DNA from: Microcella indica
Lineage (GTDB): Bacteria > Actinomycetota > Actinomycetes > Actinomycetales > Microbacteriaceae
DNA: 64,000 nt
Assembly (NCBI RefSeq): GCF_013414345.1
Contig: NZ_CP058670.1
Coordinates: forward strand, 744,001 to 808,000
Direction: 5' to 3'
Shown here: in pieces, positions 40,677 to 56,832 of the stretch
Layout: the number at the start of each line of letters is the position of its first letter
Numbering within the stretch: position 1 is the first letter of the stretch
The notes under the pieces: model-generated
The model's input: the letters and a program-made list of their open reading frames with translations, nothing else
Told to the model about the DNA's origin: nothing
Databases searched by the model: none
Translations under genes and position numbers: made by a program

Positions 40677-40736
40677 TCGCCCTCGCGGCACACGGCTGTG
40701 GAGAACGGGCGGGATGCTCGGGGCCGCCTTTGCAGA

Positions 40737-42047: not shown

Positions 42048-42910
42048 GCGTCGCGCTCGGTCTCGTTCTCGCGGCGGGCGTGCTGCTCGTCGTCTCCCCG
42101 TGGCTGTGGCCGCGCGACCACGATCGCCGGCCCGCCGAGCGCAGTCGGACGCTCGGCGCCGTCGCCGACCTGCTCGCGCGCGCGGGCGTGACGGGGGTCG
42201 CGCCGGCGACGTTCGTGGCCCTGGACATCCTCGTCGGTCTGATCGGTGCCGCCCTCACGCTCATCCTCGTACCGGTCGTCGCGCTCGCCCCCGTGGCGGG
42301 AGTGGTCGCCGCGGCGCTGCCCGTCGTCGCGCTACGGGCGAGGGCGGCGGCGCGGCGGCGCGCACTGCGGTCGGTGTGGCCCGACGTGGTCGATCACCTG
42401 CTGTCGGGCATCCGGTCGGGGCTCGGCCTGCCGCAGGCGATCGTGACTCTCGCCGAGTCGGCGCCGGGCAGCGTGCAGGAGCCTTTCCGCCAGTTCCGCC
42501 GCGACTACGTGCGCACGGCGCGCTTCGAGGAGTCGCTCGACACCCTCAAGGCGAACCTCGCCGACCCGGTCGCCGACCGCATCATCGAGACGCTGCGCAT
42601 GGCGCGCGAGGTGGGCGGCACCGAGCTGCCGATGGTGCTGCGCTCGCTCTCGCAGTACTTGCGGGCCGACGCGGCCGTGCGCGGTGAAGTGGATGCTCGG
42701 CAATCGTGGGTGCGCGCCGCCGCCCGCCTGGGCGTCGTCGCGCCCTGGGTCGTACTCGTGCTGCTCGGCACGAGGCCCGAGGCCGCGGCCGCCTACAACT
42801 CGGTCGGCGGCGCCGTGCTCGTCGTCGCGGGCCTCGCGGTGACTCTCGTCGCCTACCGCATCATGATCGCGCTCGGGCGCCTGCCCGAGGAAGGTCGGTG
42901 GTTCCGATGA
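42044..42910 (+). CDS. tadB: Tad pilus inner-membrane platform protein TadB
   Basis: 288 aa from GTG 42044 overlapping the tadA stop. Two N-terminal membrane spans, the type II secretion F domain (VVDHLLSGIRSGLGLPQAIVTLAESAPG in parts, then FRRDYVRTARFEESLDTL), and C-terminal spans. TadB and TadC form the platform that transfers ATPase force to the growing pilus. Full length for the family. Confidence 0.88.
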   Translation: MSVALGLVLAAGVLLVVSPWLWPRDHDRRPAERSRTLGAVADLLARAGVTGVAPATFVALDILVGLIGAALTLILVPVVALAPVAGVVAAALPVVALRARAAARRRALRSVWPDVVDHLLSGIRSGLGLPQAIVTLAESAPGSVQEPFRQFRRDYVRTARFEESLDTLKANLADPVADRIIETLRMAREVGGTELPMVLRSLSQYLRADAAVRGEVDARQSWVRAAARLGVVAPWVVLVLLGTRPEAAAAYNSVGGAVLVVAGLAVTLVAYRIMIALGRLPEEGRWFR

Positions 42911-42914
42911 AGCG

Positions 42915-43877
42915 GTGGTTCCGGTGAGCGGCGCGCTCGTGAGCCCGCTGCTCGGCTGGGCGCTGCTGTGCGGCGTGGGGCTCGGTGCGGGGCTCTGGCT
43001 GCTCGTGAGCCTCTTGCCTCGGCTCGGCCGCCCGAGGCTCGTGCACCGCCTCGCCCCGTACCTCGTCGATGTCTCGCCCGCTGCGCACGCGATGACATCG
43101 GGGCAGCGCAGCGATCCGCTGCCGGTCGCTTCGGCGCTGCTCGCCCCGCTCGTGGAGGGCGCGAGTCGCGTGCTGGAGAGCGTGCTCGGCGGTGAGGAGG
43201 CGATCCGCACGCGCCTGCGGCAGTCGGGCGCGTCGACGACGATCGCGGGGCATCGCACGCGGCAGCTCGCGGGTGCCGCGCTCGGGGCCGCCGCAGGGGT
43301 CGCGGTCGCGAGTGTCGCGGTGCGCGACGCGGGCACGATCGTGCTCGCCGCGGTCGGGGGAGTGCTCGCGGGCTCGATCGCCGGGCTCGCTCTTGTCGAC
43401 CAGCTGCTCGCCCGGGCGGCGAAGCGTCGTGTCGCCCGTATCGCCGACGAGTTCCCGACCATCGTCGAGTTCCTCGCCCTGAGCGTCTCGGCGGGCGAGT
43501 CGATCCTCGACGCGGTCCGCCGCGTCGCCCGCACGGGCTCGGGCGAGCTCGCCACCGAGTTCGACCGTGTTGTGACGCGCGCCGCGACCGGTCAGCCGGT
43601 GGCGGCCTGTCTCGCAGAACTGCGTGACGACCTCGGGATGCCCTCCATCACGCGCCTCGTCGACCAAGTGCTCGCGGCTCTCGACCGCGGGTCGCCGCTC
43701 GCCGAGGTATTGCGCGCCCACGCGCTCGACGCCCGCGAGGAGTCGAAGCGTGCCCTACTGGAGGCCGCGGGCACGCGCGAGGTCACGATGCTCGTACCGC
43801 TCGTGTTCCTCATACTCCCGGTCACGGTGCTCTTCGCGGTCTGGCCGGGCCTCATGGTGCTGCAGCTCGGGTTGTGA
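42915..43877 (+). CDS. tadC: Tad pilus inner-membrane platform protein TadC
   Basis: 320 aa from GTG 42915, or 317 aa from GTG 42924; the choice is open. Type II secretion F domain: RVARIADEFPTIVEFLALSVSAGESILDAV in parts, CLAELRDDLGMPSITRLVDQVLAALDRG in parts, and the terminal VFLILPVTVLFAVWPGLMVLQLG span. Gene order tadA-tadB-tadC is standard, but the pilin gene expected next is 11.7 kb away beyond inserted DNA. Confidence 0.88.
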   Translation: MVPVSGALVSPLLGWALLCGVGLGAGLWLLVSLLPRLGRPRLVHRLAPYLVDVSPAAHAMTSGQRSDPLPVASALLAPLVEGASRVLESVLGGEEAIRTRLRQSGASTTIAGHRTRQLAGAALGAAAGVAVASVAVRDAGTIVLAAVGGVLAGSIAGLALVDQLLARAAKRRVARIADEFPTIVEFLALSVSAGESILDAVRRVARTGSGELATEFDRVVTRAATGQPVAACLAELRDDLGMPSITRLVDQVLAALDRGSPLAEVLRAHALDAREESKRALLEAAGTREVTMLVPLVFLILPVTVLFAVWPGLMVLQLGL

Positions 43878-44174
43878 TCAGCGACTCAGCGAGAGCTCCT
43901 CAACTTCGAGGTTGGCCCCGTTTGTGCACCCGGGTATCGAGCATCCCGGCTCAATTGCTGCCGATGCATCTCTAGTCATCGGTGCCGTCGACGTGTTCAC
44001 GACCGGCAACCCCCATCCTCTTCGGCACAGCGAACGCTGCACGACGACAGGAAAGAAGATTGGTCTGGTGGACCAAGGATCAAGCGCCCCTATGTCGCTA
44101 GCGTGAGCGTTCGGTGGAGTCACTCGCCAGAGGGTTGGGGTTCGACGACTCGCACGCTCATCAAGGAGGATAGC
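43878..44174. other. Left junction of the inserted region and leader of the hydratase-aldolase gene
   Basis: About 300 bp in which composition changes from the very GC-rich tad genes to more balanced DNA. It holds a GCGAGAGCTCCTC motif (43889-43901) that recurs at 45177-45189, and the TTGGTC inverted repeat at 44060-44076. No gene is recognisable. A 24-codon extension of the aldolase frame starts at 44103 but lacks a ribosome site. Confidence 0.45.
44060..44076. promoter_or_regulatory. Inverted repeat upstream of the hydratase-aldolase gene, possible operator
   Basis: TTGGTC-TGGTG-GACCAA: perfect 6-bp arms with a 5-bp spacer, about 100 bp before the TTG start. A candidate site for the PucR-type regulator encoded further down the unit or for another repressor. 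Confidence 0.35.
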
Positions 44175-45164
44175 TTGGCGCAAAAGTACACAGCACAGGA
44201 TCTCGTGGGGATTGTCGGAATCGTTCCGACGCCGTCGACTCCCGACTCGGCACGCTGGGACACGGACAATACGATTGAGACGAGCGTGACTACCGCGATG
44301 ATCCAAGGTGCTGCGCCGGCCGTCGACGCACTGTTGACCCTCGGTACCTTTGGCGAAGGCGCGACGGTAACCGAGCTTGAGGTCGCCGCGTTCATGAGAA
44401 TTGTGGTGTCTGAAAGTGGGAAGACGCCAGTATTCGCAGGTGCGACAACATTAAATACCCGCGACACGATCCGCCGCGCTCGAATGCTTCTCGACATCGG
44501 CGTTGATGGCTTGTTTCTCGGGCGCCCGATGTGGTGCGAGATGGATGACGATGCGATCGTCGGCTTCTACTCCGACATCGCCGAAGCTCTGCCCGAAGTC
44601 CCCGTCATCTTGTACGACAACCCTTCGGCTTTCAAGAGCAAGCTCTCGCCAGCGCTGTACTCAAGGCTATCCGAGATTCCCACGCTCATCGGCGCGAAGT
44701 ACACTTTCCTCGGCCCCCAGTACGCGGATGACGTCGAAGCGTGTGGTGATCGAATCCGGTTGCTCCCTATGGATGCCGATTGGCTAGACGCACACCGGAT
44801 TGTGGGGGATGCCGCCGCTGCCTGCTGGAGCCCCAGTGCCGCATGTGGCACCGAACCCCTCGAACGGCTACGCAACGCGATGGTCTCCTCGGATTGGGTC
44901 GCTGCGGAGGCAATCTCCCAGGAGATAGAATACGCGTACTCAACGCTCATGCCCCAGGGCGACTTCGCAAGTTTCTCGCGGTACAACATCCCCCTCGACA
45001 AGGCGCGCATTGCGGCAGCCGGTGTCATCGATCCCGGCCCGCCGCGCCCGCCCTATCAAACCGCTCCCCAGTCGTATCTAGACGGGGCCACTGAGGCGGG
45101 CACCAGGTGGGCCGAATTGCGGAGCAGCTACACGGTTGGTGCCGTAGCTGGCCCCGCCCGCTAG
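44175..45164 (+). CDS. DapA-superfamily hydratase-aldolase, trans-o-hydroxybenzylidenepyruvate hydratase-aldolase-like
   Basis: 329 aa from TTG 44175, preceded by an excellent AAGGAGG five bases away. TIM-barrel class I aldolase. GIVGIVPTPSTPDSARWD, TLNTRDTIRRARMLLDIGVDG (in parts), GRPMWCEMD and ILYDNPSAFKSKLSP resemble the NahE/PhdG hydratase-aldolases that split side chains in naphthalene and phenanthrene degradation. The Schiff-base Lys is the one in LIGAKYTF. Such enzymes release pyruvate and an aromatic aldehyde. Substrate here unknown. Codon use differs from the tad genes, indicating transfer. Confidence 0.75.
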   Translation: MAQKYTAQDLVGIVGIVPTPSTPDSARWDTDNTIETSVTTAMIQGAAPAVDALLTLGTFGEGATVTELEVAAFMRIVVSESGKTPVFAGATTLNTRDTIRRARMLLDIGVDGLFLGRPMWCEMDDDAIVGFYSDIAEALPEVPVILYDNPSAFKSKLSPALYSRLSEIPTLIGAKYTFLGPQYADDVEACGDRIRLLPMDADWLDAHRIVGDAAAACWSPSAACGTEPLERLRNAMVSSDWVAAEAISQEIEYAYSTLMPQGDFASFSRYNIPLDKARIAAAGVIDPGPPRPPYQTAPQSYLDGATEAGTRWAELRSSYTVGAVAGPAR

Positions 45165-45174
45165 TCGGACATCG

Positions 45175-45193
45175 TTGCGAGAGCTCCTCGCAA
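45175..45193 (+). terminator. Hairpin after the hydratase-aldolase gene
   Basis: TTGCGAG and CTCGCAA pair around AGCTC, 10 bp past the stop. No T-run. The right arm lies within the target duplicated by the IS481-type element, so that element landed at the foot of this hairpin. Confidence 0.45.
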
Positions 45194-45199
45194 ACTGCA
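45184..45199. repeat. Left target-site duplication of the IS481-family element (16 bp)
   Basis: CTCCTCGCAAACTGCA, repeated exactly at 46529-46544. Confidence 0.8.
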
Positions 45200-45228
45200 T
45201 GTGTGGTTTCAGTACATCGTGGACACCT

Positions 45229-45290
45229 GTCTCACGTCATCGTGGACAGCAGTGCCGGTGAAGCCGTGATGTCTCACGTCATCGTGGACA
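45229..45290. repeat. Iterated subterminal repeats at the left end of the IS481-family element
   Basis: Two identical 20-bp copies beginning GTCTCACGTCATCG, at 45229-45248 and 45271-45290, spaced 42 bp (about four helical turns). They match the right terminal repeat better than the outermost left end does. Likely transposase-binding sites. Confidence 0.65.
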
Positions 45291-45299
45291 CCCTGGCCG

Positions 45300-46469
45300 G
45301 TGCAGTGTCAGCGGGTGAGCAAAGCCGAAGTGTTGATCCTCGCCGTCACCGTTCAGGGTCTCTCCGTGCGGGAAGCGGCCCGCATTCACGGGGTCTCGAA
45401 GTCGCTGGTCCATAAGCTCCACCAGCGGTGGCTCACCGAGGGCGAGGCGGCCTTCGCACCGCGCTCGAGAGCGCCAGGATCCAGTCCTCGTCGAACCCCG
45501 GACGCCGTTCGGGCCCGGGTGCTGCAGTTGCGCGCCCAGCTCACCGCCGATGGGCTCGATGCCGGCGCCGACACGATCGTCGCCGTCCTGGCCGCTGAGG
45601 GCACGACGGTGTCACGGTCGACGATCTGGCGGATCCTGCGCGGCGCTGAAGCGATCACCCCGCAACCCCAAAAGCGACCCCGGTCCTCGTGGCAGAGGTT
45701 CACCGCCGAGCGGCCCAACGAGCTCTGGCAGTCCGACACCACCCACTGGCAGCTCGCCGACGACAGCGAGGTGGAGATCATCGCCTGGCTCGATGACCAC
45801 TCCCGATTCCTGACCCACCTCAGCGCCCACGCCCGCGCCAACGGCCGCACCGTCACCGACACCTTCCAGCAGGCCGCGATGGAGCACGGCTATCCGGCGG
45901 CGACGTTGACGGACAACGGCAACATCTTCACCACCCGCTTCGCCGGCGGCACCCGTGCTCGCACCTCCGGCAATGCCTTCGAGACCCTGCTGGCTCTGCA
46001 CGGCATCACCCAGAAGAACGGCCGCCCCTACAAGCCCACCACGCAAGGCAAGATCGAACGGTTCTGGCAGACGCTGAAGAAGCGCCTCACCGTGCGCCCC
46101 GCCGCAACGCTTGCCGAGCTGCAGCACGAGCTGGACGAGTTCCGCACCCACTACAACCAGCACCGTCCGCACCGCTCGTTGAACCGGCGCACCCCGGCCT
46201 TCGCCTACGCCCTGATCCCCAAGGCGGCACCGACCCAGCCGGACGACCCGAACATTTGGCGAGTGCGCTACGACACCATCGACGCCGGCGGGAAAGTCTC
46301 CCTACGGTTCGCGAACCGCATGATGCACCTCGGCTACGGCCGAGCCCACGCCCGCATCGCGGTGATCGTCCTCATCCACGGACTCCACGCCACCACGATC
46401 ACCCCCGACGGCGAGGTCATCGCCGAGCACATCATTAACCCCAACAAGGGCTACCAAGCCAAAGAATGA
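45300..46469 (+). CDS. IS481-family transposase
   Basis: 389 aa, GTG start (GTG 45315 is an alternative). N-terminal HTH (SVREAARIHGVSKSLVHKLHQRW in parts), then an rve integrase domain with DDE residues: Asp in LWQSDTTHW, Asp in TLTDNGNIF and Glu in QGKIERFWQTLK. HRPHRSLNRRTP follows. C-terminal extension with an SH3-like fold is normal for the family. Intact and probably active. Confidence 0.9.
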   Translation: MQCQRVSKAEVLILAVTVQGLSVREAARIHGVSKSLVHKLHQRWLTEGEAAFAPRSRAPGSSPRRTPDAVRARVLQLRAQLTADGLDAGADTIVAVLAAEGTTVSRSTIWRILRGAEAITPQPQKRPRSSWQRFTAERPNELWQSDTTHWQLADDSEVEIIAWLDDHSRFLTHLSAHARANGRTVTDTFQQAAMEHGYPAATLTDNGNIFTTRFAGGTRARTSGNAFETLLALHGITQKNGRPYKPTTQGKIERFWQTLKKRLTVRPAATLAELQHELDEFRTHYNQHRPHRSLNRRTPAFAYALIPKAAPTQPDDPNIWRVRYDTIDAGGKVSLRFANRMMHLGYGRAHARIAVIVLIHGLHATTITPDGEVIAEHIINPNKGYQAKE

Positions 46470-46474
46470 AAAAC

Positions 46475-46503
46475 GGGCGAACCCCGCAACCGCGGGTTCA
46501 CCC
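46475..46503 (+). terminator. Terminator of the IS481-family transposase gene
   Basis: GGGCGAACCCCGC pairs with GCGGGTTCACCC (one bulge, one mismatch) just after the transposase stop, inside the element. Confidence 0.55.
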
Positions 46504-46528
46504 GTCCACGATGTCGTGAGACATCACA

Positions 46529-46544
46529 CTCCTCGCAAACTGCA
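46529..46544. repeat. Right target-site duplication of the IS481-family element (16 bp)
   Basis: Exact copy of 45184-45199. Confidence 0.8.
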
Positions 46545-46619
46545 CCATCGAACCCCCAACAAGGAACGACACAAGGCGTGTCGGGCGACGGAGCCCGACC
46601 GCGATGAAAGGAAGCTCCA

Positions 46620-47951
46620 GTGACGATCAATGATTCGACTCTGACCTCTTCGGAAGCACCAGAAGTTCCCCGTAGAACCCTTCGCACGGTTGCGGCGACT
46701 GCGGCCGGCACCGCCATGGAGATGTATGACTTCGTCCTCTACGGAACTGCGGCTGCACTTGTGTTCGGCCCGCTGTTCTTCCCGCAGGTGGATCCCGTGA
46801 TCGGCACGTTGGCGTCGTTGGCAACTTTTGGGGTTGGCTTCGTCGCCCGTCCGCTTGGCGGCATAATCTTCGGGAATCTTGGTGACCGAATCGGTCGCAA
46901 GAAGGTGCTCATCATCACCATGATCGGGATGGGCATCTTCTCGACGATCATCGGGTTGCTTCCGACGTATGAGACGATCGGGATCTGGGCTCCCATACTG
47001 CTAGTCCTTCTGCGGCTCTTTCAGGGGGTCGCGATGGGGGGCGAGCAAGGTGGCGCTATCGTCATGGCCGCAGAATCCGATGGTCAGCGTTCACTGCGCC
47101 GTGGTTTCTTAGGTGCATGGCCCGGAGTGGGCATGGCAGGCGGGCTTGTTCTGGCGACGCTCATCTTCGGTGCGTTCGCCGGGGCGCTTGACGAGGCGGC
47201 GTTCCTCTCCTGGGGATGGCGAGTACCATTCCTCATCAGTCTCGTCCTGGTCGCAATCGGTCTTGCCATTCGACTCGGCGTGCCCGAGACCAGCGTGTTC
47301 GAGGCCGCCAAGACCGGGCAGCGCACGACACGCTCGCCCATGATCGATGTCATACGTAGCTACTGGCGTCAAATTCTGTTGGTGATCGGGATGAAGTCGG
47401 GCGAGACCGCGGCATTCTTCCTCATCGCAACGTTCTCGGTGAGCTACGGAAGTCAGTTCCTGGGCATCGCACGTGCTGACATCCTCAACGCTGTTCTCGT
47501 TGCCGCAATCGTGGAGATGATCACACTTCCGCTCTGGGGTGCTCTGTCCGACCGAGTCGGACGTCGGCCGGTGATGATTTTCGGCGCGGCGTTCCTGCTC
47601 GTTTTCACAGTACCGTTCTTCCTGTTGTTGAACACCACGGCCATGCCTCTGGTGTACCTTGCCCTGATCCTTGCAATGGGAATGGGCCACGCACCTCTTG
47701 CGGCACCATCGGGCGCGTTCTTCGCCGAGGCTTTCCCCACGCGCGTGCGGCTCAGCGGCGTGTCGCTCGGTGTGCAGCTCACTGCAGCTATTGCGGGAGG
47801 CTTCACGCCGCTCATCGCGACGGCACTGCTCGCCGCCACGGGGAACACCTGGTCCGTTGCCGGGTACATCGGGGCGCTCGCACTGATCTCCCTCATCGCA
47901 ACACTCATGACGCGTGAGACTTTCAAGACAGGCGAACTGCCGGTCGACTAG
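46620..47951 (+). CDS. MFS transporter of the metabolite:H+ symporter (MHS) family
   Basis: 443 aa, GTG start with AAAGGAAG six bases upstream. MHS features: AGTAMEMYDFVLYGTAAALVFG in parts, GFVARPLGGIIFGNLGDRIGRK in parts (motif A), LLRLFQGVAMGGEQGGA and 12 spans. Family members import organic acids and aromatic acids (shikimate, 2-oxoglutarate, proline betaine). Its place between the hydratase-aldolase and cupin genes suggests uptake of the compound degraded by this unit. Confidence 0.85.
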   Translation: MTINDSTLTSSEAPEVPRRTLRTVAATAAGTAMEMYDFVLYGTAAALVFGPLFFPQVDPVIGTLASLATFGVGFVARPLGGIIFGNLGDRIGRKKVLIITMIGMGIFSTIIGLLPTYETIGIWAPILLVLLRLFQGVAMGGEQGGAIVMAAESDGQRSLRRGFLGAWPGVGMAGGLVLATLIFGAFAGALDEAAFLSWGWRVPFLISLVLVAIGLAIRLGVPETSVFEAAKTGQRTTRSPMIDVIRSYWRQILLVIGMKSGETAAFFLIATFSVSYGSQFLGIARADILNAVLVAAIVEMITLPLWGALSDRVGRRPVMIFGAAFLLVFTVPFFLLLNTTAMPLVYLALILAMGMGHAPLAAPSGAFFAEAFPTRVRLSGVSLGVQLTAAIAGGFTPLIATALLAATGNTWSVAGYIGALALISLIATLMTRETFKTGELPVD

Positions 47952-47995
47952 CTCACACAAAATGTTCAGCATAGAGAAGGAAAGGAACGCCGACT

Positions 47996-48502
47996 ATGGG
48001 CAACGACAGTGCGAAGCTCAGCGAAGAAGGACTCCAGGAGTTCATGCAGGAAATTGACCGCATGCACCACCGGGATGATCAGCACGTGACCGAACCTCAT
48101 CTCGTCACGCATTCGGAGGACGCCTACTGGCTCACGGGTGGGACGGACAATCCCTCCCACCTCGGTCTGCTGCGTCACGTGCCGATGAAGACTGTGGAGT
48201 TCGTACTCCAGGTGATTCCGGCGGAGACCTCGACGGACCTCCAGAGGCACGTCCACGAGTCCGTTCACTACGTGGCGGACGGTGGCGGATGGTCGGAGAT
48301 CGGCGACCAGGTTGTCACCTGGAGCAAAGGTGACTTTGTCTTCACTCCCCCCTGGATTTGGCACCGGCACTATGCCAATTCGGAGGACGTGCACATGATC
48401 ATCATCGAGAATTCTCGGCTCCTGAACAGCCTCGACGCTGGTCGTCGCGAAAGCCGTGGCAAAGTCAGCTTTGCTGAAGAGTTCGGCGTTCAAGACACAT
48501 GA
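47996..48502 (+). CDS. Single-domain cupin protein
   Basis: 168 aa with AAGGAAAGGA upstream of the ATG. One cupin barrel: HVHESVHYVADGGG carries motif 1 with His residues, and WSKGDFVFTPPWIWHRHYANS carries motif 2 in part. The His/Glu set can hold a metal. It could be a dioxygenase or an isomerase/binding protein; ring-cleavage gentisate-type enzymes have two such domains, this has one. Its stop overlaps the regulator start (ATGA). Confidence 0.75.
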   Translation: MGNDSAKLSEEGLQEFMQEIDRMHHRDDQHVTEPHLVTHSEDAYWLTGGTDNPSHLGLLRHVPMKTVEFVLQVIPAETSTDLQRHVHESVHYVADGGGWSEIGDQVVTWSKGDFVFTPPWIWHRHYANSEDVHMIIIENSRLLNSLDAGRRESRGKVSFAEEFGVQDT

Positions 48503-49857
48503 GTGCATTCGTACTCGACGGTCAGGAGTACAATCACGCGATGACACAACCCGCCACGTCGCCTCCGATCGATACAGGGGCCTCGGGAAGGTCCCCGCAC
48601 ACCTTCACGTGGATACTGGAGCTTTCTTCCGTCTCCGACGTTCCCGGCGAGCTGACCGACACGGCGCGCGAGGTAGCGCGCCAGCATCTTGGCCCCGGCC
48701 CCGCTCAGTGGGTTGCGTCTGAAGCGGCCGGTGTCGCGAATCTGATCGTCAGGACGGATCCGTCTCTCGCGTCTCTAGGGAGAACAGTCCATGAGACAAC
48801 GGAGCTATTGTTCCTGGACACCATCCTCCGGTTAGTGGATCCGAATCTTGGCCGGCTCACGAGGCCCCTGGTCCTGCAATTGGCGCAAGGGGCCATGAAT
48901 GAGGGCGCGACTCTGGCCGCCGTCCTGAGAGCTCTCAACCTCGGGCAAGCTGGAATCACCGAAGCGCTCCTTCACGAGTGTGAACGGCTCATTCCCGTGG
49001 GTGAGCAGGGCGCCAACATGCGGGCACTTGTCAGCAGCGTGGTCGATACGCACAACCAACTCGCGGATGTCATCACCGACATGCATCCAGCAACGGAGAA
49101 TCCGGTGCGGGGTCTTCATGAAACGGAATCTGGAGTCCTCGCTGCTCTCTTGAGCGGTCGAGGCCGACCGGAACGATTCGAACAGGTCACCCGATATCCG
49201 CTTGACCGAATCCACGTGGCCGCAGTCGCATTCAGCCAGCGGGAAGAACCCGAGAAGCTCGTGGCCACGACCGTAAAGGCGCTCGAGGGGATGGGATGCG
49301 ATCAGATCTTCAAGGTGAAGATCGCACCCAACGTGCTCTGGGCGTGGGGGAGCGTTCGCACTGCTGGCGATCTCCGTCTAGAGCCACCGCCACCGTGTAA
49401 TGGATGGACCATGACGGTCGGTCTCCCCGGTAGCGGCGCAGCGGGGTTCATCGCCAGTCATGACGAGGCGCGTGCTCTGCAGAAGGTCGCCATGATGGCC
49501 GGCTGGCGCAACCTCGGGCGAATCCTGCCGTATGACCGTTATGGGGCAGTCGCTGAACTCGCCGCTCGTCCCGAACGTCTTCAGAGGTTTCTCGAGGTTC
49601 AGCTCGGCGGACTCCTCGGGGACAGCGGTCGCGAGACGGACCTTCGAAGCACCATGCTGGAGTATCTCAATGTCAATCGCAGTCAGTACGCCGCGGCTCA
49701 GCGGCTTCATGTCTCGAAGAACACCGTGAGTTACCGGCTTCGCCGAGCTGAGGAGATCCTTGGCAGGGACATCGGTGAGGATCTCAGTCCGCTTCATACT
49801 GCGCTGCTGGCCACTGATATTCTCGGAGCAGACTTCGCTGCGCAGGTGGTGGCATGA
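48499..49857 (+). CDS. PucR/CdaR-type HTH transcriptional regulator of the catabolic unit
   Basis: 452 aa from ATG 48499 overlapping the cupin stop; ATG 48541 with an AGGAG is an alternative. The central region is GGDEF-like, as in CdaR-type proteins. The C-terminal PucR HTH is clear: MLEYLNVNRSQYAAAQRLHVSKNTVSYRLRRAEEILGRD in parts. Such proteins usually activate the operon they sit in when an organic acid is present. The stop overlaps the DUF5519 gene by 4 bases. Confidence 0.85.
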   Translation: MSAFVLDGQEYNHAMTQPATSPPIDTGASGRSPHTFTWILELSSVSDVPGELTDTAREVARQHLGPGPAQWVASEAAGVANLIVRTDPSLASLGRTVHETTELLFLDTILRLVDPNLGRLTRPLVLQLAQGAMNEGATLAAVLRALNLGQAGITEALLHECERLIPVGEQGANMRALVSSVVDTHNQLADVITDMHPATENPVRGLHETESGVLAALLSGRGRPERFEQVTRYPLDRIHVAAVAFSQREEPEKLVATTVKALEGMGCDQIFKVKIAPNVLWAWGSVRTAGDLRLEPPPPCNGWTMTVGLPGSGAAGFIASHDEARALQKVAMMAGWRNLGRILPYDRYGAVAELAARPERLQRFLEVQLGGLLGDSGRETDLRSTMLEYLNVNRSQYAAAQRLHVSKNTVSYRLRRAEEILGRDIGEDLSPLHTALLATDILGADFAAQVVA

Positions 49858-50387
49858 ATCGCGAGGACGAGATGACGGAATATCCACGACGCTCTGGCCC
49901 GCGCCCGTCGACGACGTCGACGAACCCGCACACACAGCTCGACCAACAGCCCGTGGATCATCAACCTAGGTTGCGGCTGATCGAATTGCTGGGCGACCTT
50001 CCGGTTGTATGGGCGGGCTCAATGATCTCAGTGCCCGGGGCGCAAGCGCTGACGTTGCCTCCTGGCACCGGCCAAGGGCCGCCCGAGGCCTTCATGATCG
50101 ACAGGGAGTTTGCGCACCTCCACCCGGCACCAGACTTTTCCCTGCACCTTGTGCTGCCGCAAGCCGTTGCCGAAGCAGCGATCGAAGCTGGCTGGGCCGA
50201 GCAGCATCCCATTGCGCGCCTCGGTTTTATCTCGCCCGGAGCTGTTATGGTTTACTCCCCACGTGATGCTGGTGAAGCGGCGATTGCGGCGGGCTTGATC
50301 AGGCAGTCGTATGCCTATGCGACGGGCGTTCATCCAACGTCCACCCAAGTAGGCGAGTCCACCGAAGTAGGCGACACGGGCCGTTGA
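49854..50387 (+). CDS. DUF5519 (luciferase-domain) family protein
   Basis: 177 aa. After a Pro/Thr-rich start of about 40 residues, FAHLHPAPDFSLHLVLP, AIEAGWAEQHPIARLGF, PGAVMVYSPRD and IRQSYAYATG match the small domain family named after its similarity to luciferase-associated sequences (DUF5519, PF17648). No catalytic function is established. Coupled to the PucR gene by ATGA, so made with the regulator. Confidence 0.65.
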   Translation: MNREDEMTEYPRRSGPRPSTTSTNPHTQLDQQPVDHQPRLRLIELLGDLPVVWAGSMISVPGAQALTLPPGTGQGPPEAFMIDREFAHLHPAPDFSLHLVLPQAVAEAAIEAGWAEQHPIARLGFISPGAVMVYSPRDAGEAAIAAGLIRQSYAYATGVHPTSTQVGESTEVGDTGR

Positions 50388-50462
50388 CGGCGCGTGTCGG
50401 TCAGACAATATCGGTGCTTCACAATCCAGAGAACCATCATTGCAGGACGGAAGGACAAGCTC

Positions 50463-51317
50463 ATGGCAGGACGCCTGGAGGGAAAAGTTGCTCTCATCAC
50501 CGGCACCGCGGACGGACAGGGCAGGGCGGCGGCACTAGCCTTCGCTGCCGAGGGCGCCAAGATCGTGGGATGCGATCTCAAGGCAGACCTCGCTGAAGAG
50601 ACGGTCGAGATGGTGCGCGCGAAGGGAGGCGACATGGTGTCGATGCAGCCTCTGAACTTGAGCGACGAAGCCGGGGTGCAGAGCTGGATTGACTTCGCTG
50701 TCGACGCGTATGGCGACTTCGACATCCTCTACAACAATGCCTCTGGGGTGAGAGGAGGCACCATCGAGTCCCTCACTCGCGCTGACTGGGACTTCGACAT
50801 GACGAACGAGGTCACCATCTTGTTCCTGGCGATCCAGAAGGCACTGCCGGTGTTCAAACGCAAGGGCCACGGCGTCATCCTGAACACTGGATCGGTCGCC
50901 GCTATGGTGGGCTCGGCAATGCCCGGAAACGTTGCGGGCAACCTGGTGCACAACGTGGCGAAGGGTGCGGTGCTGCGGCTGACGACCAACCTGGCAGTTG
51001 AGTTGTCTCCGTGGAACATTCGGGTCAACACCGTCTCGCCAGGTTTCATCGACACCCCCGCCACGCGACCACTGCTCGACGCCGGAGGGCGCGAGCCAGT
51101 CGAGAATTCGTTGCTCAACCCTCGCGTTGGCCGGCCCGAGGATATTGCTTTGGCGGCCGTGTACCTGTGTTCTGACGAGGCAGACTATGTGACCGGGTCC
51201 AACCTCGTGGTCGACGGTGGCTGGGTCGCTGGTGGCGGTGTTGGCCGCCCAGACCCTGCGATCGAGCGGATCTTCGGCGAGGTGATGAGTAAGCTGGCAA
51301 ACGCCCCCTCGGCCTAG
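50463..51317 (+). CDS. Short-chain dehydrogenase/reductase with Tyr-to-His in the active site
   Basis: 284 aa from ATG 50463 with GGAAGGA upstream. Cofactor loop TGTADGQG, NNASG (usual NNAG), catalytic Ser in NTGSVAA, and PGFIDTP near the end. The YxxxK catalytic motif reads HNVAK, so Lys is kept but the Tyr is His. It may be slow, act by a different mechanism, or be a decayed copy. Last gene of the catabolic unit; probably oxidises or reduces an alcohol or aldehyde intermediate. Confidence 0.8.
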   Translation: MAGRLEGKVALITGTADGQGRAAALAFAAEGAKIVGCDLKADLAEETVEMVRAKGGDMVSMQPLNLSDEAGVQSWIDFAVDAYGDFDILYNNASGVRGGTIESLTRADWDFDMTNEVTILFLAIQKALPVFKRKGHGVILNTGSVAAMVGSAMPGNVAGNLVHNVAKGAVLRLTTNLAVELSPWNIRVNTVSPGFIDTPATRPLLDAGGREPVENSLLNPRVGRPEDIALAAVYLCSDEADYVTGSNLVVDGGWVAGGGVGRPDPAIERIFGEVMSKLANAPSA

Positions 51318-51689
51318 AACCTTGCTTCGCTGTACGGCGCGGTGTCGAGGTCGCCGCAGTCGAATTCGCGGGTGATTTTCACGGAACCCACCCGTGCCGA
51401 TTGCTGACATTCAGCGGTCGCCTTCACCATCGGGTCATTGTTGCGGTTGTCACGCCAGGACAGAGAACGGGGCGCCCTGTCAGGTGCACAGACGAACTCC
51501 TGACACTCGACCTCGCTCGGAGCGCGGTGCGGTCGGGCAGCGCTCGAGCTTGTCGTAATCGACGGGTTCGCGTGCGTCTCGCCTGCCGTGGCCGAAATGT
51601 CGCCGTGCCCGACTGAGTTGGGGTGCCCGGCCGGGCCGACGAGTGCGCCGGCGATATGAATCGTCTTAGACCGTGGTGTCAACACCGAC
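51318..51689. other. Junction between the catabolic unit and decayed sugar genes
   Basis: About 370 bp with no convincing gene. A minus-strand frame ends at 51317 (…SVKITREFDCGDLD…) and its last 70 residues look protein-like, but its upstream part is antisense to the binding-protein fragment. It may be the remnant of an unidentified gene. Composition returns to high GC near 51690. Confidence 0.35.
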
Positions 51690-51942
51690 TGCCCGACGAC
51701 GTTCATCCACCCCATCGGTGGATTTGCGTGGGGCATCGAGTCGGCCAACTTCCTCATCGACAACCTCGAGGAGGGCGACAAGGTCGTCGCGCTGCGCATC
51801 CTGCCCGGCGTCGACGTGCTCGAGCAGCGCTGGGCCACGGCCGAGCGTCTCTTCGAGGAGGTCGGCATCGCGGCCGTCGACTACTTCACGGGAGCCGACC
51901 CGGCAGAGATCAAGAACATCATCTCTGACGAGCTCGCCGCCC
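51690..51942 (+). pseudogene. Internal fragment of a sugar ABC transporter substrate-binding protein
   Basis: About 84 codons with no start and no natural end: FIHPIGGFAWGIESANFLID, KVVALRILPGVDVLEQRW and FEEVGIAAVDYFTGADP. This resembles the middle of a periplasmic-binding-protein domain of the ribose/LacI type. It passes directly into an isomerase fragment in another frame near 51942, so a deletion fused the two. Confidence 0.55.
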
Positions 51943-52356
51943 CTCAACCGCTACGAGACGAGTCTCGTCAACACCGTCGAACAGGCGCTCGACGCACTCG
52001 AGCCTCCGCTCGGCCATGGCGTCGGGCTCGCGCTCGACAGCTATCACCTCAAACATCGAGCAGAACAGTCCCGCGGCCGCGATCCGGCTCGCGGGCGACC
52101 ACCTGACGCACGTACAGGTGTGCGGCAACGACGCGGTGTCGTCGGCGACGACCACACCGATTGGCCCGCCATGCTCGACGCGCTCGACGACGTCGGCTAC
52201 GCGGGCCCGCTCAACTTCGAGAGCTTCACCGCCGACAATGACACGATCGCGACTGCTGCCTCCATCTGGCATCCCCTCGGGCAGAGTCAGGATGCTCTGG
52301 CTGAGCGCACGTACGACTACTTGACCGCGCTGCAGAACGAGAGGTACTCCGCATGA
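51943..52356 (+). pseudogene. C-terminal fragment of a sugar-phosphate isomerase/epimerase, two compensating frameshifts
   Basis: LNRYETSLVNTVEQALDAL ... GLALDSYHL, then a one-base insertion in the AAA at 52051-52053. NIEQNSPAAAIRLAGDHL and HVQVCGND continue in the next frame, and a base lost near 52132 restores the first frame (GDDHTDWPAMLDALDDVGYAG to ALQNERYSA). Reconstructed, it is the second half of a TIM-barrel xylose-isomerase-like protein. The N-terminal half is gone. Its stop overlaps the next start (ATGA), an old operon trace. Confidence 0.65.
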
Positions 52357-53376
52357 GCACGCACCCCGTCACCCTGTTCACCGGCCAGTGGGCCGATCTG
52401 AGCCTCGAGGAGGTGGCGCGGTATGCCTCCGAGTGGGGTTACGACGGGCTGGAGACCGCGTGCTCCGGCGAGCACCTCGATGTCGCTCGCGCCGTCGAGG
52501 GCGACCCGTACGTCCAGGAGCGGCGTCCAGGAGCGCCTCGACATCCTCAAGAAGTACGACCTGAAGGTGTGGGCGATCTCGAACCACCTCAAGGGTCAGG
52601 CCGTGTGCGACGACCCCATCGACTTCCGCCACCAGGCGATCGTTGGCTCGCGCGTGTGGGGCGACGGCGAGGCGGAGGGCGTGCGACGGCGCGCAGCCGA
52701 GGAGATGAAGCTCACCGCGAAGGCCGCGCGCCGACTGGGCGTCGACATGGTCGTCGGGTTCACGGGCTCGAAGATCTGGCCGTACGTCGCGTTGTTCCCG
52801 CCCGTCGGCGCCGACGTCATCGAGGCGGGGTTCCAGGACTTCGCCGGCCGGTGGAACCCCATCCTCGACGTCGTCGACGGCGAGGGGGTGCGCTTCGCCC
52901 ACGAAGTGCACCCGAGCGAGATCGCCTATGATTACTGGTCGAGCGTGCGCTCCCTCGAGGCGATCGAGCACCGAGAGGCGTTCGGCTTCAACTGGGAACC
53001 CTCGCACATGATGTGGCAGGGCATCGACCCGGTCGGTTTCATCGTCGACTTCCAGGACCGCATCTACCACGTGGACTGCAAGGACACGCGGATGCGTCCG
53101 GCGAACGGTCGCGCGGGAATCCTCGGCTCGCACCTGCCGTGGGGCGACCCGCGGCGCGGCTGGGACTTCGTCTCCACCGGTCACGGCGACGTGCCGTGGG
53201 AAGACTCCTTCCGCGCGCTGCGGTCGATCAGCTACGAGGGGCCCATCTCGGTCGAGTGGGAGGACGCCGGCATGGATCGACTGCACGGGGCGAAGGAGGC
53301 CGCGGGGTTCATCCGTTCGCTGCTGTGGGGTCAGCCGACCGCGTCCTTCGACGCCGCCTTCAGCAACCAGGACTGA
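52353..53376 (+). pseudogene. Sugar-phosphate isomerase/epimerase (IolE/IolH-like), broken by a 13-bp tandem duplication
   Basis: Starts MSTHPVTLFTGQWADL. At 52512 GTCCAGGAGCGGC is duplicated in tandem (52512-52524, then 52525 onward), which shifts the frame. After it, [20 protein letters not shown], the metal-site segments [10 protein letters not shown] and HVDCKD, and [10 protein letters not shown] continue to 53376. Without one copy the gene reads through as about 336 codons. TIM-barrel isomerases of this kind act in inositol and rare-sugar catabolism. Sequencing error is the alternative explanation. Confidence 0.75.
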
Positions 53377-53397
53377 ACGGCGGCGCCGTCCTCGAGG

Positions 53398-53640
53398 TCA
53401 GCGCCGCGGCGCGTCCGGGTCCTCCGGTGACTCCTCGCGGCGCTCCTCGACGAGGTCCTTCGTGCGCAGCAGCCGCAGAGCAGTGACGAGCAGCAGGCCG
53501 CCGACGACGTTGAGGATGAGGGTCCACCAGAACCAGGAGAGCCACTCGAGGTAGCCGAAGTCGGCGCCCGCCTGGATCGCGCCGAAGATGAGGAGCGAGT
53601 CGAGGATCGAGTGGAAGAGCGGCACGCCCGCGAGCAGGAA
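53398..53640 (-). pseudogene. C-terminal part of an FNT-family transporter gene, separated by an IS3 element
   Basis: 81 codons, FLLAGVPLFHSILDSLL ... GGLLLVTALRLLRTKD ... DAPRR then stop. It covers the last two membrane spans and the tail of the formate/nitrite transporter-type protein whose N-terminal part is at 54886-55528. It continues in frame with that part when the insertion is removed. Confidence 0.85.
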
Positions 53641-53723
53641 TGGCCTGACCCCAGATTTTCGGTCCGTTCGTTATGAGAGTCGTCTTGTTGCCCCGCTCGT
53701 CGGGGAGGAAGACTGGATTCATC

Positions 53724-54008
53724 ATGACCACGAGAAGGCGCCGGCACACGCCGGAACAGATCGTTCGCAAGCTCGGCATCGCTGACCGTGTCCTGGCCGA
53801 TGGCGGCGACGTTGCAGCTGCCTGCCGGGAGCTCGGCGTGTCGGAGCAGACCTACTACCGGTGGCGCAACCAATACGGCGGCCTGAAAGCAGAAGACGCG
53901 AAACGGCTCAAAGAGCTCGAGAAACAGAACGCGACCTTGAAGCGACTGCTGGCTGAGGCGGAGCTGGAGAAGGCGGCGTTGAAGGAGCTGGCAGAGGGAA
54001 ACTTTTAG
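53724..54008 (+). CDS. IS3-family transposase OrfA
   Basis: 94 aa from ATG 53724. N-terminal HTH_Tnp_1 (RRRRHTPEQIVRKLGIADRV) and a leucine-zipper-like coiled coil (AKRLKELEKQNATLKRLLAEAELEKAALKEL in parts) used for multimerisation. The last codons are GAG GGA AAC TTT TAG, containing the heptamer GGGAAAC for -1 frameshifting into OrfB. Confidence 0.9.
   Translation: MTTRRRRHTPEQIVRKLGIADRVLADGGDVAAACRELGVSEQTYYRWRNQYGGLKAEDAKRLKELEKQNATLKRLLAEAELEKAALKELAEGNF
53996..54002 (+). promoter_or_regulatory. Programmed -1 ribosomal frameshift site (GGGAAAC)
   Basis: G GGA AAC in the OrfA frame fits the X XXY YYZ slippery rule. Slipping back one base gives GGG AAA CTT TTA GGC, which enters the OrfB frame before OrfA's TAG at 54006-54008. 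This would produce the OrfAB transposase. Confidence 0.65.
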
Positions 54009-54844
54009 GCCCGGGCAGACGCCGCGCCGCGATCCGTCACTTGCTGAGCGTGTTCGACATCAGTGAGCGGATGGCGTGTCGTCTGGTCGGGCTGAGCAGA
54101 TCGGCCTGGCGCCGACCCTTGGTCTCGGAGACCTGCGCCGACCCAGACGCTGCATTGCGGACGTGGCTGCGAGCGTGGGCGAAGACTCATCCTCGGCGCG
54201 GCTACCGCAACGCCCACGCCGACGCCGTCGGTGAGGGCTGGGTGGTGAACGTCAAGAAGATCCAACGGCTCTGGCGTGAGGAAGGCCTGCGGGTGATCGT
54301 GCGTCGTCGCCGCAAACGCGTCGGCGCCTCCACCGCTGAACCTATCCCGGCTGACGCGCCTAACACGGTGTGGGCGGTGGATTTCCAGTTCGATGCCACC
54401 GAGAACGGTCGCAACCTGAAGATCGCCTCGATCATCGATGAGCACACCCGCGAATGCGTCGGCGGGCTCGTGGAGCGCTCGATCACCGCCGACCGGCTCG
54501 TGGACGAACTGGAGCGCATCGTCGCCCACCGTGGCCTGCCGACTGTGTTGCGGTGCGACAACGGGCCCGAGTTCGTCTCCCAAACCCTCGCCGACTGGGC
54601 GAACGACTCGGTGGGGATCTCCTACATTCCGCCGGGCCAGCCGTGGCGCAACGGCTACGTGGAATCGTTCAACTCCCGCATTCGCGACGAGTGTTTGAAC
54701 CTGAACAGTTTCTACAGCCTGCACCATGCCCGGGTCGTGATCGGCGACTGGAAAAGGGACTACAACCATGGCCGTCGCCACTCCGCGCTCGGCTACCGGA
54801 CCCCGGCGGCCTATGCTCGGGACTGCACGCATCGAAACCCGTGA
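53996..54844 (+). CDS. IS3-family transposase OrfB (catalytic part, made by frameshift)
   Basis: About 280 codons in the -1 frame from the slippery site; a separate TTG start at 54041 is possible. HTH_21 segment (WAKTHPRRGYRNAHADAVGEG in parts), then the rve domain with DDE residues: Asp in VWAVDFQFD, Asp in LRCDNGPEFVS and Glu in NGYVESFNSRIRDE. C-terminal GRRHSALGYRTPAAYA is typical. Intact. Confidence 0.9.
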   Translation, partial: GKLLGPGRRRAAIRHLLSVFDISERMACRLVGLSRSAWRRPLVSETCADPDAALRTWLRAWAKTHPRRGYRNAHADAVGEGWVVNVKKIQRLWREEGLRVIVRRRRKRVGASTAEPIPADAPNTVWAVDFQFDATENGRNLKIASIIDEHTRECVGGLVERSITADRLVDELERIVAHRGLPTVLRCDNGPEFVSQTLADWANDSVGISYIPPGQPWRNGYVESFNSRIRDECLNLNSFYSLHHARVVIGDWKRDYNHGRRHSALGYRTPAAYARDCTHRNP

Positions 54845-54885
54845 CGACTCCCAAACGGCGTGGACCGAAACACGGGGTCAGGCCA

Positions 54886-55528
54886 GGAAGGCTGCGGCGA
54901 CCGACGCGATGATCTTCGCCACTGTCGACTCCGTGCCCTGGTGCATGCGCGTCAGAAGAGTAATGGTGCTGCCGCCGAGGATCGCGAGGGCCGCCGTCTC
55001 GAGGGTCAGCGGGGCTTCGGCGAACTCCCGCGCGGTCTCGATGACGAGCTCGTGCCACGCGGGCACGGCGATCATGAGCAGCCCCATGAAGAGCCAGCCG
55101 CCGGCGAGGTTGGCGACGACGGTGCCGCCCCACAGCATCGCGAGCCGCTTCACCGACGCTTCGCGGGCGATGACGGCGGCGACGGGCATGAGGAAGTTCT
55201 CGGTGAACAGCTCGCTGCCGGCGAGCAGGAGGGCGATGAACCCGATGCCGAACGCGAGCGCCGCGAGGAGGTGGTTGCCGGTCTCATGGAGCACGAAGAG
55301 GTATGCCATGACGCCTAGCCCCACCTCGAGTCCGCCGAAGAACCCCGTGATGAGCATGTTCGGGAAGGTGCGCTGCAGCCGCTCGGCGCCTTCTTCGACG
55401 GTCGCGTCGAACGTCTTCTCGAGCTCCCCCTCGACGGGGGCGTCGTTGTCGCCGAGCTCGGCGCGTCGCTCGCGCTGCTTCTCCTTGTGTTCCTCGTTGT
55501 GGTGATCGTCGTCGCGCTTGTCGCTCAT
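54886..55528 (-). pseudogene. N-terminal part of an FNT-family transporter gene, interrupted by IS3
   Basis: ATG 55528. A charged N-terminus of about 50 residues (HHNEEHKEKQRERR) precedes the channel domain: NMLITGFFGGLEVGLG, LLAGSELFTENFLMPV (GSELFTEN corresponds to the FNT GAELFTGN motif) and LTLETAALAILGGSTI. It breaks off at VAAAFL. With 53398-53640 rejoined, it reads AAAFLLAGVPLFHSI without a shift. FNT-type channels carry small monovalent acids. The gene is inactivated; lone translation would stop inside the IS end. Confidence 0.88.
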
Positions 55529-55620
55529 GCGCTAACGCTCGCCTAGCCCGGGCCGATTGGCAAGTTCGATCCTGTGAACAACTCGACTCTGACCGGCGGG
55601 ACTCTTGGCACACTGCATGC

Positions 55621-55797
55621 ATGCATGCACTCATGGGGAAGATCGAGCAGTGGCGGGGCGACGAGCGAGGGGACGTGCCCGGCTGGGTGCTCATCACCTT
55701 GATGACGGCGGGCCTCGTCATCATGATCTGGGCCCTTGCGGGTCCCGCGCTGCAGGGCGTGTTCCAGCAGGCGATCGACCGGGTGACCGCGTTCTAG
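55621..55797 (+). CDS. flp: Flp-type pilin (short)
   Basis: 58 aa from ATG 55621 (ATG 55633 possible). A short charged leader, MHALMGKIEQWRGDERGD, is followed by a single hydrophobic helix from VPGWVLITLMTAGLVIM to the C-terminus AIDRVTAF. The layout is that of Flp pilins, whose leader is removed by a TadV-type peptidase at a Gly near GDVPG. The usual Glu at +5 is not present. It is the gene expected after tadC, now 11.7 kb from it, and is followed by tadE on the same strand. Confidence 0.7.
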   Translation: MHALMGKIEQWRGDERGDVPGWVLITLMTAGLVIMIWALAGPALQGVFQQAIDRVTAF

Positions 55798-55855: not shown

Positions 55856-56368
55856 TCAGTCGCGCAGGCGCGCCATTATGACGGCGTCCATCCAGTCGCC
55901 GTCGCCGTAGCCGACGCGGCGCATGATGCCCTCGTGCTCGAAGCCGAGGCGCTCGTAGAGGGCGATAGCGCGGTCGTTGCCGACGAAGGCGATGAGGGAG
56001 AGGCGCTTGAGGTCGAGCCAGTTGTCGGCGAGGTCGATCATGGAGTCCATGAGGGCGGAGCCGACTCCTTGACTCTGCGAGTCTTCGCTCACCGCGACGA
56101 GGTCGATCTCGCCGGCATGACGGGCGCGCGGCTCGTCGGGCGTGGTGATGAGTTCGCCGAATCCGACGATCTCCTCCGTCTCGTTGTCGACCGCGACGAT
56201 CTGGTGCACGCCGTTGCGCGGCGAGAGGCGGGCCTTCGAGTAGTCCGTGCTCGCGAGGGGCACCCGCAGGGTTCCCTGCATGATGTGGGGGCTGGTGAGG
56301 ATCGCGTGCACGCCCTCGTAGTCGTCCTCGGTGGCTCCGCGGATCGTGAAAGTGGGCTCAGTCATCAT
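55856..56368 (-). CDS. GNAT-family N-acetyltransferase
   Basis: 170 aa. Acetyl-CoA-binding motif A SQSQGVGSALMDSMIDLA, preceded by GEIDLVAVSED, and motif B ALYERLGFEHEGIMRR. This is the typical Gcn5 layout (RimI/YhhY-like). Amine substrate unknown. It is on the opposite strand between flp and tadE, so it interrupts the pilus operon. Start ATG 56368 or the next codon. Confidence 0.85.
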   Translation of the reverse strand: MMTEPTFTIRGATEDDYEGVHAILTSPHIMQGTLRVPLASTDYSKARLSPRNGVHQIVAVDNETEEIVGFGELITTPDEPRARHAGEIDLVAVSEDSQSQGVGSALMDSMIDLADNWLDLKRLSLIAFVGNDRAIALYERLGFEHEGIMRRVGYGDGDWMDAVIMARLRD

Positions 56369-56421: not shown

Positions 56422-56832
56422 GTGAGGATGCTCTGCCGACGTGTCACTCGCCGATACCCGCACGACCGAGGTTCGGCGCCCGTCGAGTTCGTCCTCGTCG
56501 GCGCCCTGCTGACCCTCGTGACCGTGTCGGTGCTGCAGCTCGCGCTCGCCCTCCACGTGCGGTCGACTCTCATCGATGCGGCGGCGGAGGGCGCCCGGCA
56601 CGCGGCGCTCGCCGACAGCAGCCTCGCGGCCGGGGTGGAGCGCAGCCGCGACCTCATCGCGACCGCCGTCGGGGAGTCCTACGCGGGCGACATCTCGGCA
56701 GGATTCGGCAGCTACGAGGGCCACCCGGTCGTTGTCGTGACGGTGCGCTCCCCGCTGCCCCTCCTCGGGCTCGCGGGGCTCGACCGCGGGTTGGAGGTGA
56801 GCGGGCGTGCCGCGCTCGAACCGCTGCGCTGA
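56422..56832 (+). CDS. tadE: TadE-family minor pilin
   Basis: 136 aa, GTG start. The TadE signature follows a basic leader: DRGSAPVEFVLVGALLTLVTVSVLQLALALH in parts, with Glu at +5 of the mature helix. A periplasmic or surface domain follows. TadE proteins are processed like prepilins and needed for pilus assembly. The next gene starts 26 bases before its end. Confidence 0.85.
   Translation: MRMLCRRVTRRYPHDRGSAPVEFVLVGALLTLVTVSVLQLALALHVRSTLIDAAAEGARHAALADSSLAAGVERSRDLIATAVGESYAGDISAGFGSYEGHPVVVVTVRSPLPLLGLAGLDRGLEVSGRAALEPLR

Follow-up and report, generated by a model that had tools for sequence, protein, structure and literature searches.

The window analysed here, a 64,000-nt stretch of the Microcella indica genome (G000:C1:744001-808000, within a single-contig genome of 2.585 Mb), carries a Tad pilus locus that is split in two between tadC and the gene in the flp position. 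The upstream half comprises tadA (40746..42047, Pfam T2SSE 1.9e-40), tadB (42044..42910, T2SSF 2.5e-9) and tadC (42915..43877, T2SSF 9.3e-17), a TadA-type secretion ATPase adjoining two T2SSF membrane proteins, all on the plus strand with open reading frames and with 43877 as the last base. The downstream half, likewise on the plus strand, begins with a pilin-like gene of 58 amino acids (55621..55797), which has no Pfam match and is called flp by its position, and continues with tadE (56422..56832, TadE 1.6e-10), a second TadE-like gene (56807..57307; TadE 0.043, under the cut-off, with orthologues in congeners) and a Tad/TadG-like gene (57133..57789, Tad 2.1e-5, true start probably ~57340), so that TadE/TadG-like pseudopilin genes with matches over the cut-off (TadE 1.6e-10 and Tad 2.1e-5) lie downstream. 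By its gene content the locus is an actinobacterial Tad-type pilus operon, and pilus assembly is predicted from these genes. A preliminary description of this DNA had tadABC ending at 43877, a pilin-position gene at 55621 and both halves intact, all of which we recover; it also had flp followed by tadE-like genes, which do lie downstream but not in direct adjacency, a minus-strand GNAT acetyltransferase gene (55856..56368) standing between flp and tadE. This gene is common only to the window and Microcella pacifica (G009, the closest relative among the compared genomes) among the loci compared.

Comparison of the loci indicates that the present gap content of the window most likely replaced earlier genes at a split that already existed, because M. 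pacifica and nine more of the 20 congeners compared are themselves split by other genes. Homology between the window and M. pacifica ends at 43873, in the last tadC codons, and resumes at 53406 in fnt, a formate/nitrite transporter gene, and again inside flp. Between tadC and fnt, M. pacifica has two minus-strand dynamin-like GTPase genes (L033:13281-16656), whose place is occupied in the window by a segment unique to it (~43878..53405, ended there because fnt is common to both genomes). With a tadC-flp gap above 600 bp defined as split, 11/21 Microcella genomes scored are split (window included), and tadC and flp are contiguous in most of Microcella clade B. Outside Microcella, flp lies 18–412 bp past tadC in 66/66 loci, these being all of the non-Microcella loci among the best 80 of 103 tadC loci. 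We also assembled a family set: tadC is found in 84/120 Microbacteriaceae genomes, 82 of them non-Microcella, of which the best 60 by E-value were taken (G138 was skipped), and flp was detected in 56 of these 60 (all except G061, G054, G093 and G100). Among these 56 the gap is at most 291 bp in 43 and 705–10802 bp in 13. A tadC match is present in 24/26 genus genomes (own included); the gap counts exclude G014, G025, G013, G012 and G021 (contig ends or no tadC match) as well as L154-L156, regions from three of these five, and the 79-bp gap of G010 was entered by hand and then checked. The alignment to relatives that the preliminary description proposed as a check thus returns an uninterrupted locus in all 66 loci outside the genus and in 43/56 other Microbacteriaceae, and a split one in the nearest relative.

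The dynamin-like genes illustrate the turnover at this site. Two adjacent Dynamin_N proteins, as in known bacterial dynamin-like protein pairs, lie in the gap of the relatives, within the split tad locus, whereas the window genome is without the pair. The larger protein of M. pacifica has a match in 9/26 genus genomes searched and none in the window genome, where Pfam Dynamin_N gives a single weak match (1.1e-4), similar to those found in nearly all congeners (some match occurs in 25/26 genomes). In a tree built from locus proteins, only the clade of the window has the pair, and within that clade it is missing from the window, G007 and G023, which suggests that it may have been lost in the window lineage. 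The pair sits inside a split tad locus in M. pacifica and eight other congeners; across these species the larger protein is 89–95% identical to that of M. pacifica, although their tadC is 68–74% identical to that of the window. By tblastn, the pair is found in 0/13 gaps of the split non-Microcella loci; a dynamin-like gene lies 10 kb past tadC in G093, one of the genomes with no flp detected. Of 10 gap proteins from nine split loci, seven have a Pfam match (a DEAD-box helicase, an ABC transporter ATPase, an aldo/keto reductase, a chloride channel, a DUF5692 protein, a PQQ-repeat protein and a small kinase-like ATPase). The gap of G131 (L211) holds the exonuclease gene and a gene of 468 amino acids that in Microcella sit downstream of tad, which suggests that neighbours of the tad locus moved into it in that genus.

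The two halves of the locus are preceded by similar promoter elements. Upstream of tadA, on the plus strand, the window has TGTGGAGAA at 40697-40705 followed by a −10-like CAGAAT at 40733-40738 (whole element 40697..40738), with the start codon 49 nt past the first T. No other TGTGGANAR occurs in the 64-kb window, and with about one expected by chance it is the place of the site that counts. TGTGGA precedes tadA in 20/20 resolved Microcella and in 47/48 resolved other Microbacteriaceae by script, to which G142, missed by the script anchor, was added by eye; the element occurs in 2/320 background windows of 120 nt. Loci at which the tadA start did not resolve are left out of these counts (G005 of the 21 Microcella, 8/56 other Microbacteriaceae and 11/66 outside-genus loci). 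A −10-like pattern stands exactly +36 from the first T in 51/68 tadA and 28/34 flp copies, and when an A at +37 and a T at +41 are allowed at offsets of 35–37 the counts are 67/68 and 34/34 (three control offsets give 0–2); the flp copy of G010 is outside the 34-copy profile. An ATG or GTG lies 47–50 nt past the first T in 67/68 tadA copies, in 19/24 split flp copies (the window among them) and in 1/11 contiguous flp copies, if these codons are the true starts. There is no prominent −35 box in the promoter profile, which points to an activator.

Before flp, the window carries an altered copy of the element on the plus strand, TGTGAACAA at 55573-55581 with CACACT at exactly +36 (55609-55614; whole element 55573..55614) and the start at +48. 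Its core reads TGTGAA instead of TGTGGA and is otherwise in register; CACACT is also present in the copies of other genomes, so the one core base is the single clear departure of this promoter. TGTGGA occurs at a fixed distance before flp in 20/21 Microcella, against 0.78 expected, the distance being 48–49 nt in the clade of the window and 72–76 nt in the other clade, where flp has a Shine-Dalgarno-like leader. Among other Microbacteriaceae, searched in a 220-nt window at split loci and in a 130-nt window including the tadC end at contiguous loci, the element precedes flp in 13/13 split and 2/43 contiguous loci (G048 and G154), and outside Microcella it is found at 2/66 loci against 2.0 expected. 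Taken together, 23/24 split loci have the element before flp, with the window as the sole exception. Across 82 tree tips, 23 are split with the element, one (the window) is split without it, 12 are contiguous with it and 46 contiguous without it (P = 5.6e-11, Fisher's exact test), and Fitch parsimony gives 10 changes of split state and nine of element state. In the window and in M. pacifica, where the GNAT gene separates flp from tadE, there is no TGTGGA upstream of tadE.

Several points weigh against reading these patterns as a shared promoter that tracks the split. The genomes are related, and the Fisher value therefore overstates independence. Ten contiguous Microcella also carry the flp element, so element and split are not one-to-one, and 15/43 contiguous non-Microcella gaps are shorter than 48 bp and have no room for the element between the genes. 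The 600-bp cut-off was chosen with the gap sizes known (0/56 gaps fall between 291 and 705 bp), and the tree count uses hand-entered states for Microcella and for five outgroups. TGTGGA was searched exactly, which makes its invariance among the collected copies a matter of construction; what carries weight is the fraction of genomes that have a match. At outside-genus loci TGTGGA precedes tadA in 18/55 resolved cases, mostly at other distances. Finally, tadA and flp promoters are no more similar within a genome (0.41) than between genomes (0.39), and these values lend no support to a recent origin of the flp copy by local duplication of the promoter at tadA.

On balance, we consider it likely that the Tad operon has long been split at the tadC|flp junction, that one promoter architecture runs both halves and that one factor serves both. 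Each half would be driven by TGTGGA plus a −10-like hexamer at 36 nt, with the tadA start codon at 47–50 nt, a geometry that would fit binding of an activator immediately ahead of −35 and transcripts that lack a leader at tadA and in most of the split flp copies. In the window lineage the dynamin-like pair would have gone from the gap, with foreign catabolic genes, decayed sugar genes and insertion sequence (IS) elements there instead, and the split would do little harm since both halves have the same promoter architecture. The change to TGTGAA may weaken flp expression in the window. As far as promoter sequences can tell, split Tad operons seem to remain co-regulated through a repeated promoter; of the two outcomes raised in the preliminary description, two promoters or lost co-regulation, the former mostly holds, with one architecture at both promoters and a single-base core change in the flp copy of the window. 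A broader version, in which one activator governs a Tad-pilus and possibly DNA-uptake regulon across Microbacteriaceae through TGTGGANAR-N27-(nAnnnT), mostly on leaderless transcripts, and in which tadC|flp can be broken repeatedly while co-regulation outlives the operon, is tentative, and we hold it with slightly more doubt than belief. Repeated breakage by dynamin genes, catabolic genes and transporters would then be tolerated, since this promoter is present, or is acquired, at the flp half as well.

The preliminary description had instead read the locus as an intact tad operon cut by an insertion. In a simple form of that account, a recent insertion in the window strain would have left the downstream genes silenced or on a fortuitous promoter. 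Contiguity of tadC and flp in all outside-genus loci among the best 80 of 103 and in most of clade B speaks for it, as does the recent look of both IS elements, and the DNA in the gap is indeed foreign and decaying. The arrangement in M. pacifica largely refutes it, however, since the nearest relative is already split by other genes, and the promoter ahead of flp is in exact register; a simple recent insertion is rejected as the whole story, the claim of a first cut finds no support, and the account as set out is highly improbable. Another rival reading is that the flp element is ancestral to the family and was lost where tadC and flp are close, so that the association would reflect loss in contiguous loci. 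Its presence in the 10 contiguous Microcella and in G048 and G154, and the same register in distant lineages, speak for this idea. We nevertheless find it doubtful, because the element is at chance level outside Microcella, is absent from 41/43 contiguous family members and changes state nine times on the tree.

A different question is which protein would bind the element. Among non-Microcella tadA copies, 34/48 read TTATCCACA or TTGTCCACA on the other strand, which we take to be the DnaA-box consensus TTRTCCACA, and paired TTATCCACA sites occur at the same spot in two genera (G000:C1:1652 and 1821, G113:C1:1674 and 1854), probably the replication origin at 1.6–1.9 kb of both genomes; DnaA itself might thus control the Tad regulon. 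In Microcella, however, TTRTCCACA is kept in just 2/20 tadA copies and 10/20 read TTCTCCACA or CTCTCCACA (the window copy, TTCTCCACA, does not match the consensus), while TTATCCACA is retained at positions 1652 and 1821 of the window genome, and the fixed distance to the −10-like site fits an ordinary activator, so that control by DnaA appears improbable. It could also be that the altered flp core and the decay nearby mark a pilus locus heading for loss in the window strain. The window is the sole split locus of 24 with a changed core, and IS activity and gene decay adjoin the flp promoter; against this, the tad reading frames are open, the −10-like site and its spacing are in register and CACACT is shared with other copies, and we regard incipient loss as rather unlikely.

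The element also occurs at other genes. In the window genome, TGTGGATAA with CAGTAT at +36 lies before a SAF/FlgA-like gene (G000:2006776), which starts at +88 behind a ribosome-site-like AAGGAG. The family match of this gene is weak (0.0026, under the cut-off, with none in Pfam; a relative, L326, reaches 2.6e-7), and we take the gene to be CpaB-like from the known list of Tad parts. A single factor might drive tadA, flp and this gene jointly. The 13-mer CTGTGGATAACTT has 45 sites in 10 Microbacteriaceae genomes and none in G103, and its reversed control has 0. Downstream of the 42/45 sites read are tadA (five), SAF/FlgA-like genes (seven) and a short conserved protein just ahead of those, together with DUF559/MTES_1575-type nuclease-like genes, a GIY-YIG protein and a TOMM/ThiF-like protein; the remaining sites have no clear gene, and some are origin-like. 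No comEA or comEC was recognised downstream of these 42 sites, with no search aimed at those genes. The DUF559/MTES_1575-type genes and one GIY-YIG gene start 39–48 nt past CTGTGGATAACTT (L321, L330, L349, L350, L352, L355 and L358), the former assigned by Pfam in L321, L330, L350 and L355 and by resemblance in L352 and L358, and these nuclease-like genes hint at a DNA-processing side of the regulon. A TOMM-leader-binding/ThiF-like protein stands behind the 13-mer in three genomes (L324, L345 and L353), the family match in L353, the sole one matched, being weak (1.8e-5, under the cut-off). We also considered and rejected a large regulon built on the Microcella form CTGTGGASAG across the genome: six genomes have 0–5 sites each, overall not over the reversed control.

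Rhodoluna lacicola, a heterotrophic freshwater actinobacterium and presumably a member of Microbacteriaceae, provides a physiological comparison. Like the window it has pilus genes in more than one operon, and the accessible part of the report on it describes two tad operons that rise together with comEC/dprA once light goes off, whereas in its relative Aurantimicrobium photophilum tad and comEC/dprA genes do not move together (PMC8591293); a promoter element is not mentioned in that part of the report. For actinobacterial tad/Flp loci, the accessible text on Micrococcus luteus describes tad-1 and tad-2 (PMC4322843); the window locus differs from the loci described there by the split past tadC with unrelated genes in the gap, by a flp-position product without G/XXXXEY and by a conserved promoter at each half. 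Transformation of M. luteus requires tad genes according to parts of two reports (PMC4322843; PMC12849477), and the available portion of the 2026 report names the upstream signals or regulatory cascade for competence as still to be identified (PMC12849477). These M. luteus and R. lacicola findings are compatible with the shared-promoter model by analogy, and among the papers listed by literature searches none, as judged by title and start of abstract, deals with a tad promoter motif of Microbacteriaceae. An element that precedes tadA in all 68 resolved Microbacteriaceae, SAF/FlgA-like genes and the separated flp half could serve as bait for the regulator, and some ten operon-state changes on the family tree offer a natural series for testing co-regulation after operon breakage. 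Both bear on the way in which Tad pili and Flp-dependent DNA uptake are turned on in high-GC Gram-positives.

The gap of the window itself is of mixed composition. GC content falls from 0.74–0.75 in tadB and tadC to 0.60–0.63 in 1-kb windows starting at 44000 and 44500 and is 0.66–0.69 across the IS481-type element and across the sugar genes, the whole gap lying under the 0.74 of the tad genes; GC at third codon positions is 0.67–0.77 in the catabolic genes against 0.89–0.92 in the tad genes, as the preliminary description had said of their codon use. The first gap gene encodes a PhdJ/NahE-type hydratase-aldolase (44103..45164, plus strand, best PDB match PhdJ), which is much nearer to the trans-o-hydroxybenzylidenepyruvate hydratase-aldolases (PDB 6dan, 6dao and 9frt) than to dihydrodipicolinate synthases (PhdJ 2.8e-88 against a best 1.8e-13) and is a predicted hydratase-aldolase with putative activity on aromatic-derived pyruvates. 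It is followed on the same strand by a major facilitator superfamily metabolite/H+ symporter (46620..47951; TIGR00883, 412 bits against a cut-off of 443), a weakly gentisate-dioxygenase-like cupin (47996..48502), a PucR-type regulator (48499..49857), a luciferase-domain protein (PF17648, 49854..50387) and a short-chain dehydrogenase/reductase family oxidoreductase (50394..51317). Unlike in PhdJ/NahE systems, none of the gap genes was found to encode a ring-hydroxylating dioxygenase, and by itself the unit is therefore not a complete aromatic pathway. At E 1e-20 or better the aldolase is found in 3/299 family genomes, own included, and a syntenic aldolase-MFS-cupin-PucR set with ~75% DNA identity occurs in one family genome of another genus. 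A plasmid origin is unsupported, as no plasmid record covers 80% of the unit and the matches are to single genes; for the aldolase alone, 44/398 matching plasmid records cover at least 80%, with a top identity of ~51%.

The remaining gap features are decayed or mobile, and here too the preliminary description, with two IS elements, broken sugar genes and a split transporter gene, holds up. An IS481-type element (45200..46528, plus strand), one of two identical genome copies (the other elsewhere), is flanked by 16-bp direct repeats (45184..45199 and 46529..46544, plus strand), and an IS3-type element (53641..54885, plus strand), one of six identical copies counting its own, has GGAA on both sides. 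Each has an integrase-core transposase, terminal inverted repeats and flanking direct repeats (the IS481 repeats were found by a tool, the IS3 ends and GGAA read by eye), and both look recent. The IS3-type element splits fnt (53398..55528, minus strand), which is intact in M. pacifica; fnt is 82–83% identical between the two genomes against 92–94% in the flanks, and may thus have its own history. On the tadC side of fnt, on the plus strand, are remnants of two genes (51660..52356), namely a piece at 51660-51950 without a Pfam match and, ending at 52356, a C-terminal fragment of isomerase type, and an isomerase-type gene (52353..53376) whose frame is disrupted close to its start. At gathering thresholds, tRNA-Leu alone among known RNA families is found in the window.

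Pilins usually carry Glu at +5. The flp-position product of the window reads G-DVPGW, with Trp at +5, and lacks the Flp prepilin site G/XXXXEY (as given in the accessible text of PMC4322843); the flp-position proteins of the 17 congeners compared with it also have G-DVPGW and no Glu at +5. We accordingly describe the protein as flp-like by position and not as a Flp pilin, and it may function at the tip or as a minor subunit rather than as the major pilin. The TadE-like proteins of the window retain GSAPVEF and GSASLEF. Variation around the locus extends to a second variable site, between the TadG-like gene and the exonuclease gene, in several congeners (L034, L035, L036, L043 and L049). In the congener G004 (L052:3053-12189) the flp gene itself is broken by a phage-like element of ~9 kb, and the conserved part of its product is truncated. 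This element encodes a large serine integrase (PHROG integrase 2.5e-68) and a major head protein, has HNH and endonuclease VII-like genes together with part of a methyltransferase, and looks like a phage or phage satellite with the pilin-like gene as its attachment site.

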